From contig NZ_LWSK01000041.1 of the NCBI RefSeq assembly GCF_001642955.1, positions 1 to 46,122 of the forward strand: DNA of 46,122 nucleotides. Direction: 5' to 3'. The translations under genes and the position numbers were made by a program. Below are positions 22,462 through 27,710 of this stretch, in pieces. Positions within the stretch are counted from its first letter, which is position 1. The number at the start of each line of letters is the position of its first letter. The stretch is from Rubripirellula obstinata. Lineage in GTDB: Bacteria > Planctomycetota > Planctomycetia > Pirellulales > Pirellulaceae. The notes under the pieces were generated by a model. That model was given only the letters and a program-made list of their open reading frames with translations. It was not told the DNA's origin and searched no databases.

Positions 22462-22894
22462 CATCGCTTAGTGGCACTTGCTTTCAACACTGAACTGCCC
22501 CGGAGGGGTCATAGCACTTTGCCGGTGGCCAACGGCCACCGGTAATCGACCAGAAAAGATGGTTTGCCCCGGAGGGGTAATCGAACCGATGAATGCTCGC
22601 TGCCGCCCCTGCCGGGGCTTGGGTTTTTGGTGCGTTTGGCTCCCGTGGGCCAAAGCCCACGGCACCGTGCTGACGCCCCGTCCGGGGCTAAGTAAGTGGC
22701 ATTGGGGCATCGTCCCCCGCGTCCACGAGACTTGCGTGGTCATCGCTTAATGGCACTTGCTTTCAACACTGAACTGCCCCGGAGGGGCATAGCACTTTGC
22801 CGGTTGCCAACGGCCACCGGTAATCGACCAGAAAACATGGTTTGCCCCGGAGGGGTAATCGATTCGCTGAATGCTCGCTGCCGCCCCTGCCGGG
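22462..22894. repeat. Palindromic repeat array, family C (left, forward orientation)
   Basis: Two units begin near 22467 and 22747 (GGCACTTGCTTTCAACACTG). Each contains GCCCCGGAGGGG boxes, the hairpin CCGGTGGCCAACGGCCACCGG (second unit GGTTGCCAACGGCCACCGG) and the phrase ATGCTCGCTGCCGCCCCTGC. Unit 1 also has a CCGTGGGCCAAAGCCCACGG hairpin near 22645. Unit 2 is interrupted at 22895 by the IS4-family element. The same family continues in reverse orientation at 27119-27710 on the other side of the IS. Confidence 0.9.
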
Positions 22895-22960
22895 CAACGC
22901 TATGAAGCATTTTGGCACCGAAAAAATTGGGGTTTTCATTTTCGTGGGAACATGAAAAAA

Positions 22961-23012
22961 GCCAGATTCCCCCCACACCAACTGAAACGCTTCAGTCAGA
23001 AAGGAATCTGGC
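22961..23012 (+). promoter_or_regulatory. Leader hairpin sequestering the IS4 transposase ribosome site
   Basis: GCCAGATTCC at 22961-22970 is the exact complement of GGAATCTGGC at 23003-23012, directly before the transposase ATG at 23014. The AAGGA ribosome site at 23001-23005 lies partly in the right arm. A small 6-bp hairpin (ACTGAA-ACGC-TTCAGT, 22981-22996) sits in the loop. Transcripts entering from outside would form the full stem and block translation, a known safeguard in insertion sequences. Confidence 0.6.
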
Positions 23013-23013
23013 C

Positions 23014-24036
23014 ATGTCTCGTAAGCAATCTCGATCCCGACGCTCTCGCAACCCCAGTTCTCAATACAAGGTCAAGAATCGAGACGTGTTGCAGAAAATC
23101 TTCACGGAAGTCTTGTTTCCCGAGAACCAAATTTTTGCAGACTGGATTCTGCATGGCAACATCAAGTGGAAGCCCGAACAACTCGTCTCACAGGCAATCC
23201 TTTTCGGATGGCAAGAAAACAAGCATCTCAACGATCGCTTCGAGTTCACTTTGAAAACCTGTCACGACATCGGCTTGACGCATGTCGGCAACAGCTACAC
23301 GTCCATGATGAACGCGCTAGCCGGTTATGGCGAGCAACTGCGGATTCCGGTCCGAAAGCAACTTCACCAAACAGCCGAATCCATTTCGGGAAAGCATTTC
23401 CGCGTCGGCAAGTATGCCCCCATCGCTTTTGACGGATCAAGATTGACAACACCGCGGACCAAGTCCAACGAAGATGCGTTCTGTGCTCCAAACCATGGCA
23501 GTGGAAAGACTGCCAAGTATCGTAAGAAGCAGACCAAGGGAATGCGTCGCAGCAAGAATGAAAAGAACAAACCGCATCAACCCAAGCCGCAAGTCTGGCT
23601 GACCATGATGTGGCACATGGGACTAAAGCTTCCGTGGACATGGAAGATCGGTCCCTCCAACTCGAGTGAACGGGCGCACGTTCAAGACATGATTGAGGAG
23701 GAAGAATTCCCGGAAAACACGCTCTTTTGTGGTGACGCGGGATTCATCGGCTATCCACTGTGGAGCAAGATCATCAACAGCGGAAACGACTTCCTCGTTC
23801 GCGTGGGAGCCAATGTGAGCTTGCTTAGTGAACAAGCAGATTTCTCGATGAAGTCCGGCGGCATCGTTCTGTGTTGGCCCAAAGGACAGATGAAATCAGG
23901 GGCTAAACCGCTGCGTTTGCGTTTAAAGAAGGTGACCTTGGGCAAAACCACCGTATGGCTGCTGACGAGCGTCTTGAACGGCAGAGATTTATCGGTCAAG
24001 CGAATGGTCAAGCTCTACAAAATGAGATGGGGAGTG
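23014..24036 (+). pseudogene. IS4-family transposase, N-terminal part (split gene)
   Basis: The first 341 residues of a DDE transposase start at the ATG at 23014 (MSRKQSRSRRSRNPSS), preceded by AAGGA. The catalytic Asp residues appear in PIAFDGSRLTTPRT and LFCGDAGFIGYPLW. The frame reaches YKMRWGVE, the Y(2)R(3)E part of the IS4 signature, and then runs 17 foreign residues to a stop at 24093. The remainder of the transposase resumes at 26679. Joining 23014-24036 to 26679-27101 gives 1,446 nt, exactly 482 codons, in frame and with the complete Y(2)R(3)E(6)K motif. As it stands, the protein lacks the conserved Lys and the C-terminal domain and should be inactive. Confidence 0.9.
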
Positions 24037-24204
24037 GAGAACTACCAAGCAAGATACGCCGGAAGACACCCCTTGTATCTGCTTGCCGCCTGAGAAAAAT
24101 GGGGTTTATCGCGTCTGCGTCCGGGCGCTGCTTATGCTAGCAAACTGGACGCAGCAGCGAACTCTGGCCCACCCAACGGATTCCACTGACACAGGAGGTT
24201 TGTC

Positions 24205-24401
24205 ATGCCCAGACCAGAAGTCCCCCCCCGCGCCGACCTGCCGGGACGATAGCGCAGGCCCGTCCTCCAGCGAGGACGGTGCGGCTGAAGAAACTTTGGC
24301 ATCAACTGCCCGAAAGCCAAAGACAAGCGATCGTCGATCGACTCGCGATCATGCTCGCCGCACAAATGCCTCCTCGCCAAAAGGAGGCAAGTCATGAGTA
24401 A
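24205..24401 (+). pseudogene. Small helical protein frame upstream of the recombinase, broken at a C8 tract
   Basis: An ATG at 24205 with a strong AGGAGG site at 24193-24198 starts MPRPEVPP and stops at 24250-24252. A second frame, open through 24279-24398, encodes VRLKKLWHQLPESQRQAIVD and LAIMLAAQMPPRQKEASHE, a helical sequence, and its stop overlaps the recombinase ATG (24394). One extra C in the eight-C run at 24222-24229 would join the two into a 66-residue protein. This may be a slippery programmed frameshift, a real mutation or a sequence error. Alternatively, translation may begin at GTG 24279 (40 residues). Similar small helical proteins precede planctomycete recombinases, as I recall. 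The role could be a recombination directionality or regulatory factor (inference). Confidence 0.55.
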
Positions 24402-26592
24402 AGCAACTGCGAAACCAAAGTCACCAAGAACGTCTGAACCCACTACGCAATCTCCCAGGCAAACGCTCGCGAACCTAGTCTCGCCAAAACTAAAGCAGAT
24501 TCACCTTGATCGATTGGCCATTGTTTATGTTCGGCAGTCGAGTCCTCATCAGGTGCGAGAACATCGCGAGTCGACAGCCTTGCAATACGCATTGGTCGAT
24601 CGCGCGATCGAACTTGGCTTCCATCGGAGTCAAGTCATCGTCATTGACGAAGATCAAGCGCAAAGCGGGACATCAATGGTGGCCCGAACAGGATTTCAGC
24701 GATTGCTCACGGAGGTCAGTGACGACAAAGTCGGGCTGATACTCGGCATCGAAATGAGTCGCTTGGCAAGATCATGTAAAGACTGGCATGCGTTGCTGGA
24801 GATCTGCGCGATCTACCAAACACTGCTATTGGACACCGATGGGATTTATGATCCAAGCGATCACAACGATCGACTGTTGTTAGGACTCAAGGGAACCATG
24901 AGCGAAGCGGAATTGCATCTGCTGAGAAATCGAATGTATCGCGGACTATGTAACAAAGCCGAGCGTGGTGAAGTACTCAATCATGCGCCCATTGGTTACG
25001 TCCGCACACTGAGCGACAATTTCGTGATTGACCCAGATGAATCGGTTCAGAGTGTCGTGCGAAGTATCTTCGATCGGTTCGCCAAGTTGGGCAGCATCAG
25101 CGGTCTGCTCAAGTCATTGGTCCACGACGAAGTTCAGATCCCAGTGCGTCCCCACTTCGGAGACGATCGAGGTGAACTTCAGTGGCGTCGGCCCAATCGC
25201 GTGACTCTGCTGAACCTGTTGCATCATCCGATCTATGCAGGTGCGTATCGTTGGGGCCATCGCGACGTGGACGCGAGAAAGAAGATCCCTGGTCGTCCAA
25301 GTACCGGTCGAACCTTGCGTGATTACAAAGACTGTCGAGTCTTGATTCAAGATCGATTCGAGGCCTACATCAGTTGGGAGCAATTCGAGAAAAACCAGCG
25401 AAAACTACAGGAAAACAGCCGTAAAGCGGGGCGGTTCTCCAGTCCCGTCGGTCGCGGCGAGAGCCTCTTGGCAGGACTGGTTGTGTGCGGTCGCTGTGGT
25501 CGCAGTATGAGTGTCAGCTACAGCGGCAAACATCTACGTTACACCTGCCAGCGAGGTGCGGTCGACTACGGCGAAGAAATTTGTCAGAGCCTTGCTGGAC
25601 GAGATCTCGATGAGTCGATTGGTCGCTTGTTACTCGAAGCGATCCGTCCGGCTTCCTTGGAAGTGAGCCTCGCCGCAGCAAGTGATATCGCCAAGCAGCG
25701 CGGCGAGGACGACCGCAGGTGGAAGCATCGGTTGGAGCGGATCAACTACGAAACGGAGTTGGCTCGGCGAAGCTACGCTGCGGTCGATCCAGAGAACCGT
25801 TTGGTGGCAAGACAACTTGAGTGTCGCTGGGAAGAAAAGCTTTCTGAGCAAGAAACATTGCGTCAAGATTATCAACGATTCACAGCCGACCAACCCAATG
25901 ATTTATCGGCGTCAGAGCGTGAACTGATCCATTCGTTATCGGAAAACATTGAATCGCTTTGGCGAGCGGAGACGACGACCTGCGAGGATCGCCAAACGAT
26001 CGCACGGCTCCTGTTAGATCGAGTCGTCGTGTCGGCGAATCCGTCAAACGAACAGGTTGACGTGGACGTTCATTGGGTCGGTGGATTCAACAGTCATCAT
26101 CACGAATCGCGTCCGGTCGACAGCTACAAACAGCTGAGCAACTACACGGAACTTGTTGCACGCATCGAGGAGTTGCAATCGACTGGTACGTCCTCAGCGG
26201 AGATCGCCGCATGTCTGAATGCCGAAGGATATCGTCCACCCAAGCGATCGAAAAAGTTCAACAAGTCGATGGTGACCCGTCTACTGGCAAGTTTACGACT
26301 TGAGCGCGGCGACGCGGGTAAGTCATCCAGTGACAGAACTCACTTGGCCGTGAATGAGTGGTGGTTAAGCGAGTTGGCAATGAAACTGAGTATGCCCGTC
26401 GCAACGTTGCATCGTTGGATCCGCGTCGGCTGGATACAAGCGCGCAAGGTATCCGAAGCGAGAGGCCAATGGGCGTTACATGCGGATGCACCTGAGCTTG
26501 AACGACTGACCAAGCTACGGGATTATCGTCGTGGATGGGGCGAAACAAAAACGCCAATTGAACTGACGACCCCAGGCCCAGTCAGCCGATAA
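24394..26592 (+). CDS. Large serine recombinase
   Basis: The 732-residue recombinase has an N-terminal resolvase domain at about 35-190. The nucleophilic Ser lies in YVRQSSPHQVREHRESTALQ, followed by DEDQAQSGTSMVARTGFQRL and EMSRLARSCKDWHALL. A recombinase domain follows, with GYVRTLSDN and PIYAGAYRWGHR. A zinc ribbon contains the Cys pair GLVVCGRCGRSMS with a later YTCQRG. A coiled coil (about 430-500) comes before a C-terminal helix-turn-helix (ELAMKLSMPVATLHRWIRVG). A strong AAGGAGG site precedes the ATG at 24394, which overlaps the stop of the small upstream frame. It is the probable agent of its own insertion into the IS4 gene. Confidence 0.93.
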   Translation: MSKATAKPKSPRTSEPTTQSPRQTLANLVSPKLKQIHLDRLAIVYVRQSSPHQVREHRESTALQYALVDRAIELGFHRSQVIVIDEDQAQSGTSMVARTGFQRLLTEVSDDKVGLILGIEMSRLARSCKDWHALLEICAIYQTLLLDTDGIYDPSDHNDRLLLGLKGTMSEAELHLLRNRMYRGLCNKAERGEVLNHAPIGYVRTLSDNFVIDPDESVQSVVRSIFDRFAKLGSISGLLKSLVHDEVQIPVRPHFGDDRGELQWRRPNRVTLLNLLHHPIYAGAYRWGHRDVDARKKIPGRPSTGRTLRDYKDCRVLIQDRFEAYISWEQFEKNQRKLQENSRKAGRFSSPVGRGESLLAGLVVCGRCGRSMSVSYSGKHLRYTCQRGAVDYGEEICQSLAGRDLDESIGRLLLEAIRPASLEVSLAAASDIAKQRGEDDRRWKHRLERINYETELARRSYAAVDPENRLVARQLECRWEEKLSEQETLRQDYQRFTADQPNDLSASERELIHSLSENIESLWRAETTTCEDRQTIARLLLDRVVVSANPSNEQVDVDVHWVGGFNSHHHESRPVDSYKQLSNYTELVARIEELQSTGTSSAEIAACLNAEGYRPPKRSKKFNKSMVTRLLASLRLERGDAGKSSSDRTHLAVNEWWLSELAMKLSMPVATLHRWIRVGWIQARKVSEARGQWALHADAPELERLTKLRDYRRGWGETKTPIELTTPGPVSR

Positions 26593-26678
26593 ATAACTCA
26601 AAGTGGGCGATGGATCGTTCACCATTTCGTACACCACGTACAAGCCGAAGCGAAGGAGCGCATTGTGAACGGGAGATC

Positions 26679-27101
26679 GAAGTCGAGTTTCGCGGCCTCA
26701 AACAGACTCTCGACAAAGGCATCCTGAGTTGTCGCTCAGCGGAACGGGTCGTTGTGGAATTAGACTGGTCGTTGTTCTCGCAGGCTTACGCCGAGTTGCT
26801 TTCTCTACGAGAGCAGATCCCTCAGCAATCTGACGAACCGATTCGGGTGAGTCTCGCCGAAACGATGCGAGCGATCCGTCGTGCGATGCGGGAGCGCAAT
26901 GAGTCGGTCGCTAGCGACGAGTTGCTCGATCAGGTTCTTCGAACGGCCGTAATCGCAAGCTACAACAACCGGACTGACAAGAAGGCTCGGTATCGCCCAC
27001 ACAATCCAGACAAGAAGCCGCTGGGCGATCCAAAGGTGAGGGCACCTGATCTCGAAGAACAACAAAAACTCAACGAAAACCGGCTCGCAAACGCAGCGTA
27101 G
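26679..27101 (+). pseudogene. IS4-family transposase, C-terminal part (split gene)
   Basis: This segment supplies VEFRGLKQTLDKGILSCRSA and the remaining 135 residues, ending QQKLNENRLANAA at a TAG at 27099-27101. The Lys in FRGLK completes Y(2)R(3)E(6)K with the upstream half. An ATG at 26610 in the same frame would start translation inside the right end of the recombinase element, but no separate function is likely. Confidence 0.88.
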
Positions 27102-27118
27102 AATGCTTCATAGCGTTG

Positions 27119-27710
27119 CCCGGCAGGGGCGGCAGCGAGCATTCATCGGATCGATTACCCCTCCGGGGCAAATGATCTTTTCTGGTCGTTTACCGGTGGC
27201 CGTTGGCCACCGGCAAAGTGCTATTACCCCTCCGGGGCAGTTCAGTATTAAAGGTTGAGTGGCACTTTTGATAGCCCCGGATGGGGCGTCAGCACGGTGC
27301 CGTGGGCCTTGGCCCACGGGAGTCCAACGCAGCAAAATCCCAAGCCCCGGTAGGGGCGGCAGCGAGCATTCATCGGATCGATTACCCCTCCGGGGCAAAT
27401 GATCTTTTCTGGTCGTTTACCGGTGGCCGTTGGCCACCGGCAAAGTGCTATTACCCCTCCGGGGCAGTTCAGTATTTAAAGGTTGAGTGCCACTTACGAT
27501 AGCCCCGGACGGGGCGTCAGCACTGTGCCGTGGGCCTTGGCCCACGGGAGCTAAACGCAGCAAAATCCCAAGCCCCGGTAGGGGCGACAGCGAGCATTCA
27601 TTGGATCGATTACCCCTCCGGGGCAAATCATGTTTTCTGGTCGGTTACCGGTGGCCGTTGGCCACCGGCAAAGTGCTATTACCCCTCCGGGGCAGTTCAC
27701 GATCGGGTCG
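27119..27710. repeat. Palindromic repeat array, family C (right, reverse orientation)
   Basis: Three units with a period of about 228 bp start near 27128, 27355 and 27583 (GGCGGCAGCGAGCATTCATC). Each contains TACCCCTCCGGGGCA boxes and the hairpin CCGGTGGCCGTTGGCCACCGG, and the units are linked by a CCGTGGGCCTTGGCCCACGG hairpin. The orientation is opposite to the array at 22462-22894. The first unit joins the IS right end at 27118. The gap 27711-27840 has no gene. Confidence 0.9.

Follow-up and report, generated by a model that had tools for sequence, protein, structure and literature searches.

Why should a gene for a large serine recombinase lie inside the gene of an insertion sequence (IS) transposase, and was its position there a matter of accident or of choice? 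We addressed this question in a 46,122-nucleotide stretch of Rubripirellula obstinata DNA (contig NZ_LWSK01000041.1, positions 1 to 46,122; hereafter the window), in which a 2642-bp insert at 24037-26678 divides an IS4-type transposase gene at the codon of its catalytic glutamate, as can be read directly from the DNA. The parts of the interrupted IS and of the insert described below lie on the forward strand of the window. Our analysis indicates that this insert, which includes one copy of a GA core, is very probably a minimal mobile element that entered the catalytic-Glu codon at its GA by the action of the large serine recombinase which it encodes. The sequences confirm the observation itself: the ends are exact, the core is GA, the element termini are conserved, and nine insertions into different transposases hit one and the same codon.

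The N-terminal frame of the transposase starts at the ATG at 23014, reads ...VKLYKMRWGVE with its glutamate codon at 24037-24039 and then runs into NYQARYAGRHPLYLLAA and a stop codon, and the C-terminal part is in frame again at 26679 as EVEFRGLKQTL. The left junction is GTG-GA-GAAC and the right one ATC-GA-AGTC, GA (24037-24038 and 26679-26680) being the bases common to both there. Joining 23014-24036 to 26679-27101 gives 1446 nt, a frame of 482 codons in which the only stop is the last one; the motif restored at the joint, LYKMRWGVEVEFRGLK, is spaced Y(2)R(3)E(6)K, as in IS4-type transposases with a DDE_Tnp_1 domain. The break after YKMRWGVE, the resumption 2.6 kb further on, the shared dinucleotide and the restoration of the frame by removal of 24037-26678 had all been proposed in a previous sequence-only reading of the window, and they were borne out by direct reading of both junctions and by the joined translation. 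The N-terminal 341 codons (23014-24036) match PF01609 (DDE_Tnp_1; 1.9e-11, profile positions 7-167 of 200) and, as far as position 291 of 332, the NCBIfam model NF033592 (IS4 family), the latter with 70.5 bits, under the cut-off of 115. The C-terminal part (26679-27101) gave no Pfam match when taken alone; it is continuous with the N-terminal part in uninterrupted relatives. In all 19 uninterrupted relatives with 40-54% identity to the N-terminal half, the motif region is free of insertions and deletions, and it reads YYKMRWGIEVEFRGLKQT and YYKMRWLIEVEFRGLKQT in the two nearest of them.

Other insertions of the same recombinase at this codon were looked for in overlapping samples at the level of family (241 genomes), order (396) and phylum (392); recombinase matches occurred in 21 (E 1e-60), 25 (1e-80) and 14 (1e-80) genomes, respectively, the window's own included. 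Besides the window, eight loci in seven other genomes of the same order have an insertion at the catalytic-Glu codon, about position 163/164 of the PF01609 profile, and their recombinases are 50-85% identical to that of the window. Both junctions were resolved in L028 (genome G211, Stieleria sedimenti according to its twin L057 in strain ICT_E10.1; 64% recombinase identity), L029 (G008; 62%) and L081 (G290; 50%, IS1380-type target), the left junction in L054 (G013; 85% over the 150 aa present) and L030 (G158; 59%, with another gene on the right flank), and the right junction in L031 (G073; 63%), L044 (G216; 55%, a recombinase fragment) and L071 (a second locus of G073; 54-56%). The interrupted genes are of IS4, IS701 and Tn5-like types in the window, L054, L028, L029, L030, L031, L044 and L071, and of IS1380 type in L081. 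In a scan covering the window, L029, L030, L031, L054 and L081, the best NCBIfam models were IS4_1 (window, L029 and L031), IS701 (L054), IS4_3 (L030) and IS1380 (L081); three of these matches (window, L054 and L031) scored under the cut-off.

The profile coordinates of the fragments converge on the same place. On PF01609, the left fragments end at position 167 (window), 169 (L054), 162 (L029), 170 (L030), 165 (L028) and 162 (L081), and 164 is the first position matched by each of four right fragments (L081, L031, L044 and L029); these four and the left fragments of L028 and L030 score under the cut-off, and L071 has no PF01609 match. NF033592 places the break at 291, where the left pieces of the window, L054 and L029 all stop and the right piece of L031 begins. 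L081 is split at position 333 of the 435 of PF13701 (IS1380-type), its left piece ending and its right piece beginning there, each with a score above the cut-off. These data support, at the level of sequence, the initial proposal that a serine recombinase would insert at the GA of a conserved IS4 motif.

The attachment sites are conserved as well. Behind the GA core of attL (24037-24038), which forms the first two bases of the catalytic Glu codon, column conservation over five attL sites delimits a left element end at 24039-24095 with the blocks CCAAGC, AAGA, CTTGTATC and GCCGC.TGA, and CTTGTATC is present also in the left end of L081. The right element end, AAGGAGCGCATTGTGAACGGGAGATC (26653-26678), was delimited by alignment of eight attR sites and is followed by the GA core of attR (26679-26680). 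The attR sites fit the pattern TGA.tGG.agAtc directly before GA, with TGA and GG invariant in all eight, TGG at -9 in six (the window has CGG and L081 GGG) and ATC or ATT before GA in seven. On the target side, [CA]GNTGGN6 precedes GA in the five left flanks of IS4/IS701 type and not in the IS1380 flank of L081. Because the right end resembles the left target flank upstream of GA, the element seems to carry roughly half of its target. GA is found in the five attL and eight attR sites aligned and also in attL of L081, that is, a two-base core without target duplication.

A shared codon might nevertheless have been inherited. If one IS4 lineage had gained the element in an old single insertion and both had then been inherited or had moved jointly, the common site would be a mark of descent. 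An IS and an element within it can indeed multiply together: in genome G206, two copies of an IS66 with a related element (among L062, L064 and L065) are 99.9% identical over 5.8 kb and a third, incomplete one is 97% identical, and given this near-identity the IS66 and its passenger have multiplied jointly; an uninterrupted copy of this IS66 was not found, the near-identical matches being the three known copies. Certain interrupted right halves at the Glu codon are related too, those of L028 and L044 being 57% identical over 75 aa. However, the recombinases remain 50-85% identical while the targets belong to different families (IS4, IS701, Tn5-like and IS1380) and their left halves mostly fail to align beyond the motif: of the ten pairs that the five left halves form, seven gave a BLASTP match at E 10, six of these spanning 15-39 aa and one 129 aa at 19% identity (the left half of L028 comprises 87 aa only). 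The window and L054 have recombinases 85% identical over 150 aa, and their transposases share little beyond the motif; the elements of L030 and L044 are 98.6% identical over 915 bp, this identity ends exactly at the GA core, and their flanks are unrelated. The diversity of the targets, together with the L030/L044 identity ending at GA, points to recognition of the site rather than to descent with one IS. The sequences thus oppose common descent for the whole clade, an explanation that we regard as extremely improbable, although single pairs may share one event.

Transposition of low specificity, of the TnpX/TndX kind, would use any GA, transposase genes being merely dispensable DNA where insertions survive. 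Two observations in the wider family of homologous recombinases are in line with this: one insertion lies in a histidine kinase gene with an AA core (L050), and no target could be assigned at 33 of the 63 loci examined for the interrupted gene. Yet all nine insertions resolved in the transposase group hit one codon, despite the 121 GA dinucleotides of the joined window gene, and the 6.58-Mb genome of the window has just seven DDE_Tnp_1 genes, the interrupted one included; for both reasons, repeated chance hits on a single codon are very unlikely. The sequence before GA also argues against indifference to the target, since the TGG of [CA]GNTGGN6 (five of five IS4/IS701-type left flanks) recurs at the same distance in six of eight right ends, with ATY before GA in seven of eight. 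Such untargeted transposition is, in our opinion, very unlikely. The same holds for the idea that the insert interrupts the gene in the manner of XisF/gin elements and is excised under certain conditions to restore a working transposase on demand. The best NCBIfam match of the recombinase is XisF (NF041201), the fdxN-element excision recombinase, and precise restoration would be possible at GA. Nonetheless, the score of 99.2 bits is far from the XisF cut-off of 375, so that the protein does not qualify as XisF, hosts and targets are too varied for a single regulated programme, and several copies (L030, L044 and L039) are without one flank or have a truncated recombinase, as a parasite would show.

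Several observations weigh against integration at a recognized codon and have to be set beside this evidence. Among the 14 members with at least 50% identity in the family and order searches (window included), nine are at the Glu codon and five, L082, L083, L032, L039 and L024, were not traced to it: L082 is inserted, in reverse orientation, in a transposase gene of rve type, and the left flank of L024 (57%, in the window's own genome) resembles an HNH nuclease by eye, without Pfam match, a reading on which we do not rely. At most four candidates per genome were scored in the family search and at most two in the order and phylum searches, and family members were probably missed for that reason. 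Only four of the nine insertions have both junctions within the target gene, and what lies to the right of L030 is a gene other than the missing half of its transposase. Diversity is lower among the six right halves than among the left halves, as seen in the L028/L044 pair above and in L029/L031 (32% over 133 aa), L071/window (33% over 113) and L031/window (23% over 137). In G206, an element located in IS66 tnpB recurs in identical form in the histidine kinase gene of L050, its ends unchanged and its core AA, so that target specificity is not absolute. The exact uninterrupted IS of the window was not found in a DNA search of its own genome, the assembly of which lacks a copy. Nor was it, with the exact junction that the sequence-only reading called for, among 240 genomes searched for the transposase, where only homologues appeared. 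Finally, recognition, circular form, excision and integration are all steps that we infer from sequences.

The nearest approach to an empty site at the nucleotide level is L151, in the same genome as L028, which corresponds to the L028 target without the element (99% identity over the right flank) but has decayed, lacking one base near the site and a longer stretch upstream. The intact relative L148 has a 469-aa frame with no added residues at the site, and a search for a second copy of the L029 target in 15 genomes of its genus gave short weak matches only. As for the window, the interrupted IS with the element inside extends approximately from 22890 to 27123, according to matches at the ends of contigs C84 and C301 of the same genome, which start at window positions 22885 and 22893, and to inverted arms at 22777-22911 and 27102-27236 that contain the IS ends. 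These contig ends suggest that additional IS copies were left unassembled. Clusters of palindromic repeats (CCCCGGAGGGGTAAT..) flank the IS in inverted orientation at 22481-22911 and 27102-27699, and related stretches occur on other contigs.

The 732-aa recombinase of the element (24394-26592) has the domains of a large serine recombinase, PF00239 (Resolvase, 4.4e-19), PF07508 (Recombinase, 6.7e-16) and PF13408 (Zn_ribbon_recom, 3.2e-08), all above the cut-off. Two weak matches, both under Pfam cut-offs, lie within its residues ~585-730, one to a second Recombinase-like stretch and the other to a helix-turn-helix of the MerR/excisionase kind; this region may represent a built-in directionality or targeting module. 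An AlphaFold model from a four-row alignment reached a mean pLDDT (predicted local distance difference test score) of 57, and we base no claim on it. Apart from the recombinase and a small frame upstream of it, no further likely gene was found in the insert among open reading frames (ORFs) of at least 40 aa. The ORF list and the Pfam search of the recombinase and two small frames leave no space for a relaxase gene such as an integrative and mobilizable element (IME) would have, an origin of transfer not having been searched for. Likewise, a prophage is not apparent in 2.6 kb with a recombinase and a small frame, and no matches were found in 50,697 phage records at E 1e-30.

The small frame (24193-24401) overlaps the recombinase start and has an AGGAGGT ribosome site at 24193-24199, but from its ATG at 24205 a stop is reached after 15 codons, and the conserved part, RRPAG..LKKLWHQLPESQRQAIVDRL.., is in the -1 frame past a run of eight C at 24222-24229. 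The initial description of an element carrying only a small frame and a 732-residue serine recombinase was therefore right as to the recombinase, by Pfam, and too simple as to the small frame, which is no single plain ORF. A run of at least six C precedes the recombinase in 21 of the 24 elements examined. Frames were read in 20 of these 21 (L099, with C6, was omitted) and in L024, with no scripted start with a ribosome site in L051, and a conserved peptide was found in the -1 frame relative to the start, directly past the ..PP encoded by the C7-8 run, in 19 of 20 elements, L100 being the exception; it was recognized by the pattern L[WY]xxL in 11 of them and by eye in eight. Both shifted frames of the small ORF are often open, so openness alone is not decisive and the assignment to the -1 frame rests on the conserved peptide. 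The C7-8 run upstream of the recombinase looks like a site of programmed -1 frameshifting or polymerase slippage; the usual slippery sites in transposase genes are A-rich runs (PMC3711429).

On these grounds, integration by the recombinase encoded in the insert could proceed as follows. The element would circularise, its ends joining at GA to give a junction ...GGGAGATC-GA-GATCAACCAAGC..., and the recombinase would pair this attP with DNA encoding the RWx[IV]E motif, cut at GA and integrate without duplication or loss of target bases. The small protein, the conserved part of which would be made past a -1 shift on the C7-8 run, would control the reaction, possibly as a directionality factor, a guess from its size, position and coupling. 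The site would be conserved, multicopy and dispensable to the host, because the codon is needed for transposition and present in every DDE transposase of the group.

Homologous recombinases at unrelated sites, which would speak against the sequence-only reading, do exist in the wider family; nearly all of them are at most 51% identical to the window's and have their own, largely clade-specific sites, and L024 (57%) is perhaps another case. Thirty rows of a quick tree were labelled by target, partly by eye and not blind (L054 is not in the tree, and L058 and L082 are the same locus): IS4 (7), rve (5), IstB (4), group II intron reverse transcriptase (RT; 4), IS66 TnpB (3), Y1 (3), and IS1380, IS66 TnpC, another recombinase and HNH (one each). 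The seven IS4 rows fall within one eight-row clade with an SH-aLRT (approximate likelihood-ratio test) support of 100, the eighth row being L039, and more distant relatives are found in other mobile genes (IS66, IstB, group II intron RT and rve), largely clade by clade. The target label requires 11 changes on this tree, compared with an average of 20.8 over 5000 shuffles, none of which needed fewer than 16; the figures are 11 versus 18.9 (minimum 15) after removal of two near-duplicate rows, and 8 versus 12.9 (minimum 9) when seven by-eye labels are removed too, L087 being unlabelled in both reduced sets. Some individual labels are not relied upon: Y1_Tnp for L034 and L051 (by eye, sub-threshold profile hits only), RT for L091 and L092 and rve for L096 (by eye, without profile match), IS66 TnpB for L087 (by eye, with a TnpC-like IS66 frame downstream) and the split recombinase of L056, which rests on a BLAST match to the window recombinase.

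Pfam counts on the two longest frames per flank were headed by much the same classes as these labels, within a mixed remainder. Among the first 25 families listed of 40, the upstream flanks (108 members) contain HTH_32 (5), DDE_Tnp_1 (4), RVT_1, DDE_Tnp_IS66 and Recombinase (3 each) and IstB (2); among the first 25 of 44, the downstream flanks contain IstB and rve (3 each) and RVT_1 and DDE_Tnp_IS66 (2 each), in 104 members, with 8 of 112 left out as the remainder of a broken recombinase. Several of the families listed are unlinked to mobile DNA and appear once each. Rhizobial, cyanobacterial and streptomycete plasmids carry relatives too, with 933 places in 467 records at E 1e-30. Considering the family as a whole, we find it fairly likely that these are nearly cargo-free serine recombinase elements specialised on parasitising mobile elements through clade-specific invariant motifs, with an expression tuned by a -1 shift on the C7-8 run. 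The motifs would be the catalytic Glu of IS4/IS701/IS1380, sites in IS66 TnpB and TnpC, the IstB Walker A motif, group II intron RT, rve and even serine recombinases, and a victim could not mutate its site without forfeiting its own mobility.

Some loci show further nesting. In L024 (G000:C266, 3973-6383), an intact gene for a 484-aa IS4-type transposase lies behind a recombinase gene cut after 281 codons, a reverse nesting in which the right side was lost to the IS4-type insertion. In L069 and L071 (G073:C19 and C41), recombinase genes of the IS4 clade are each split near residue 166 by a serine recombinase in reverse orientation, about 40% identical to the window's, so that the nesting is three deep. 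In a distant clade (L036, L090, L103 and L105), a helix-turn-helix gene ending in ..HPRSIERALAR.. (HPRSVERALAR in L105) precedes the recombinase and apparently belongs to the element.

The sequence-only reading had known of no named element of this kind, which holds in part. Serine-recombinase IMEs within conserved genes of integrative and conjugative elements (ICEs) have been published (PMC7168690, PMC5704250), and those of Streptococcus at SNF2, PPI and Maff2 sites have in common with the window element a serine recombinase, a conserved intragenic site and a mobile element as victim. Whereas those IMEs, as described there, are mobilizable, bring additional genes (relaxase, replication, sometimes resistance) and have conjugative targets, the element described here lacks cargo and sits at the catalytic codon of an IS transposase. 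TnpX of Tn4451 and TndX of Tn5397 are described as large serine recombinases too. In B. subtilis, GA is invariably at the centre of the TndX target, and in C. difficile there is a preference for a conserved Fic-coding domain (PMC4430133); unlike the window element, Tn5397 is a 21-kb conjugative transposon, for which the same report describes no obvious preference beyond GA in B. subtilis. In a diverse set, 33 unique large serine recombinases share one conserved intragenic site, in a prolyl isomerase gene (PMC10083194, Durrant et al. 2022), and the passages considered here of that study, which also presents a multi-targeting clade, do not name transposase genes as a target class.

XisF and SPbeta YokA (SprA) are the closest NCBIfam model and the closest solved structures by sequence, respectively, with the window protein far under the XisF cut-off. 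These are recombinases of developmental and phage elements. The four-gene relatives of rhizobia (DUF5372, helix-turn-helix, small ORF and recombinase; e.g., pNGR234a) have recombinases with 33-38% identity in the rows examined (H35, H38) and, like the window, an annotated small ORF that overlaps the recombinase start, but they possess extra genes and their small ORF is annotated without a frameshift. We found no paper on serine recombinases aimed at transposase catalytic motifs in the open-licence literature, which is no proof of absence. Serine-recombinase elements in conserved genes of mobile elements were thus known already; new here are the lack of cargo and the catalytic codon of IS transposases as target.

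Altogether, the element offers a concrete case, open to testing, in which mobile DNA of one class would live off another through the codon that the victim can least change. If this is true, the family would be a source of natural recombinases for which attL/attR sets are defined and target motifs differ by clade, and it is a starting point for the numerous genes on plasmids of rhizobia, cyanobacteria and streptomycetes that are annotated only as "recombinase family protein".

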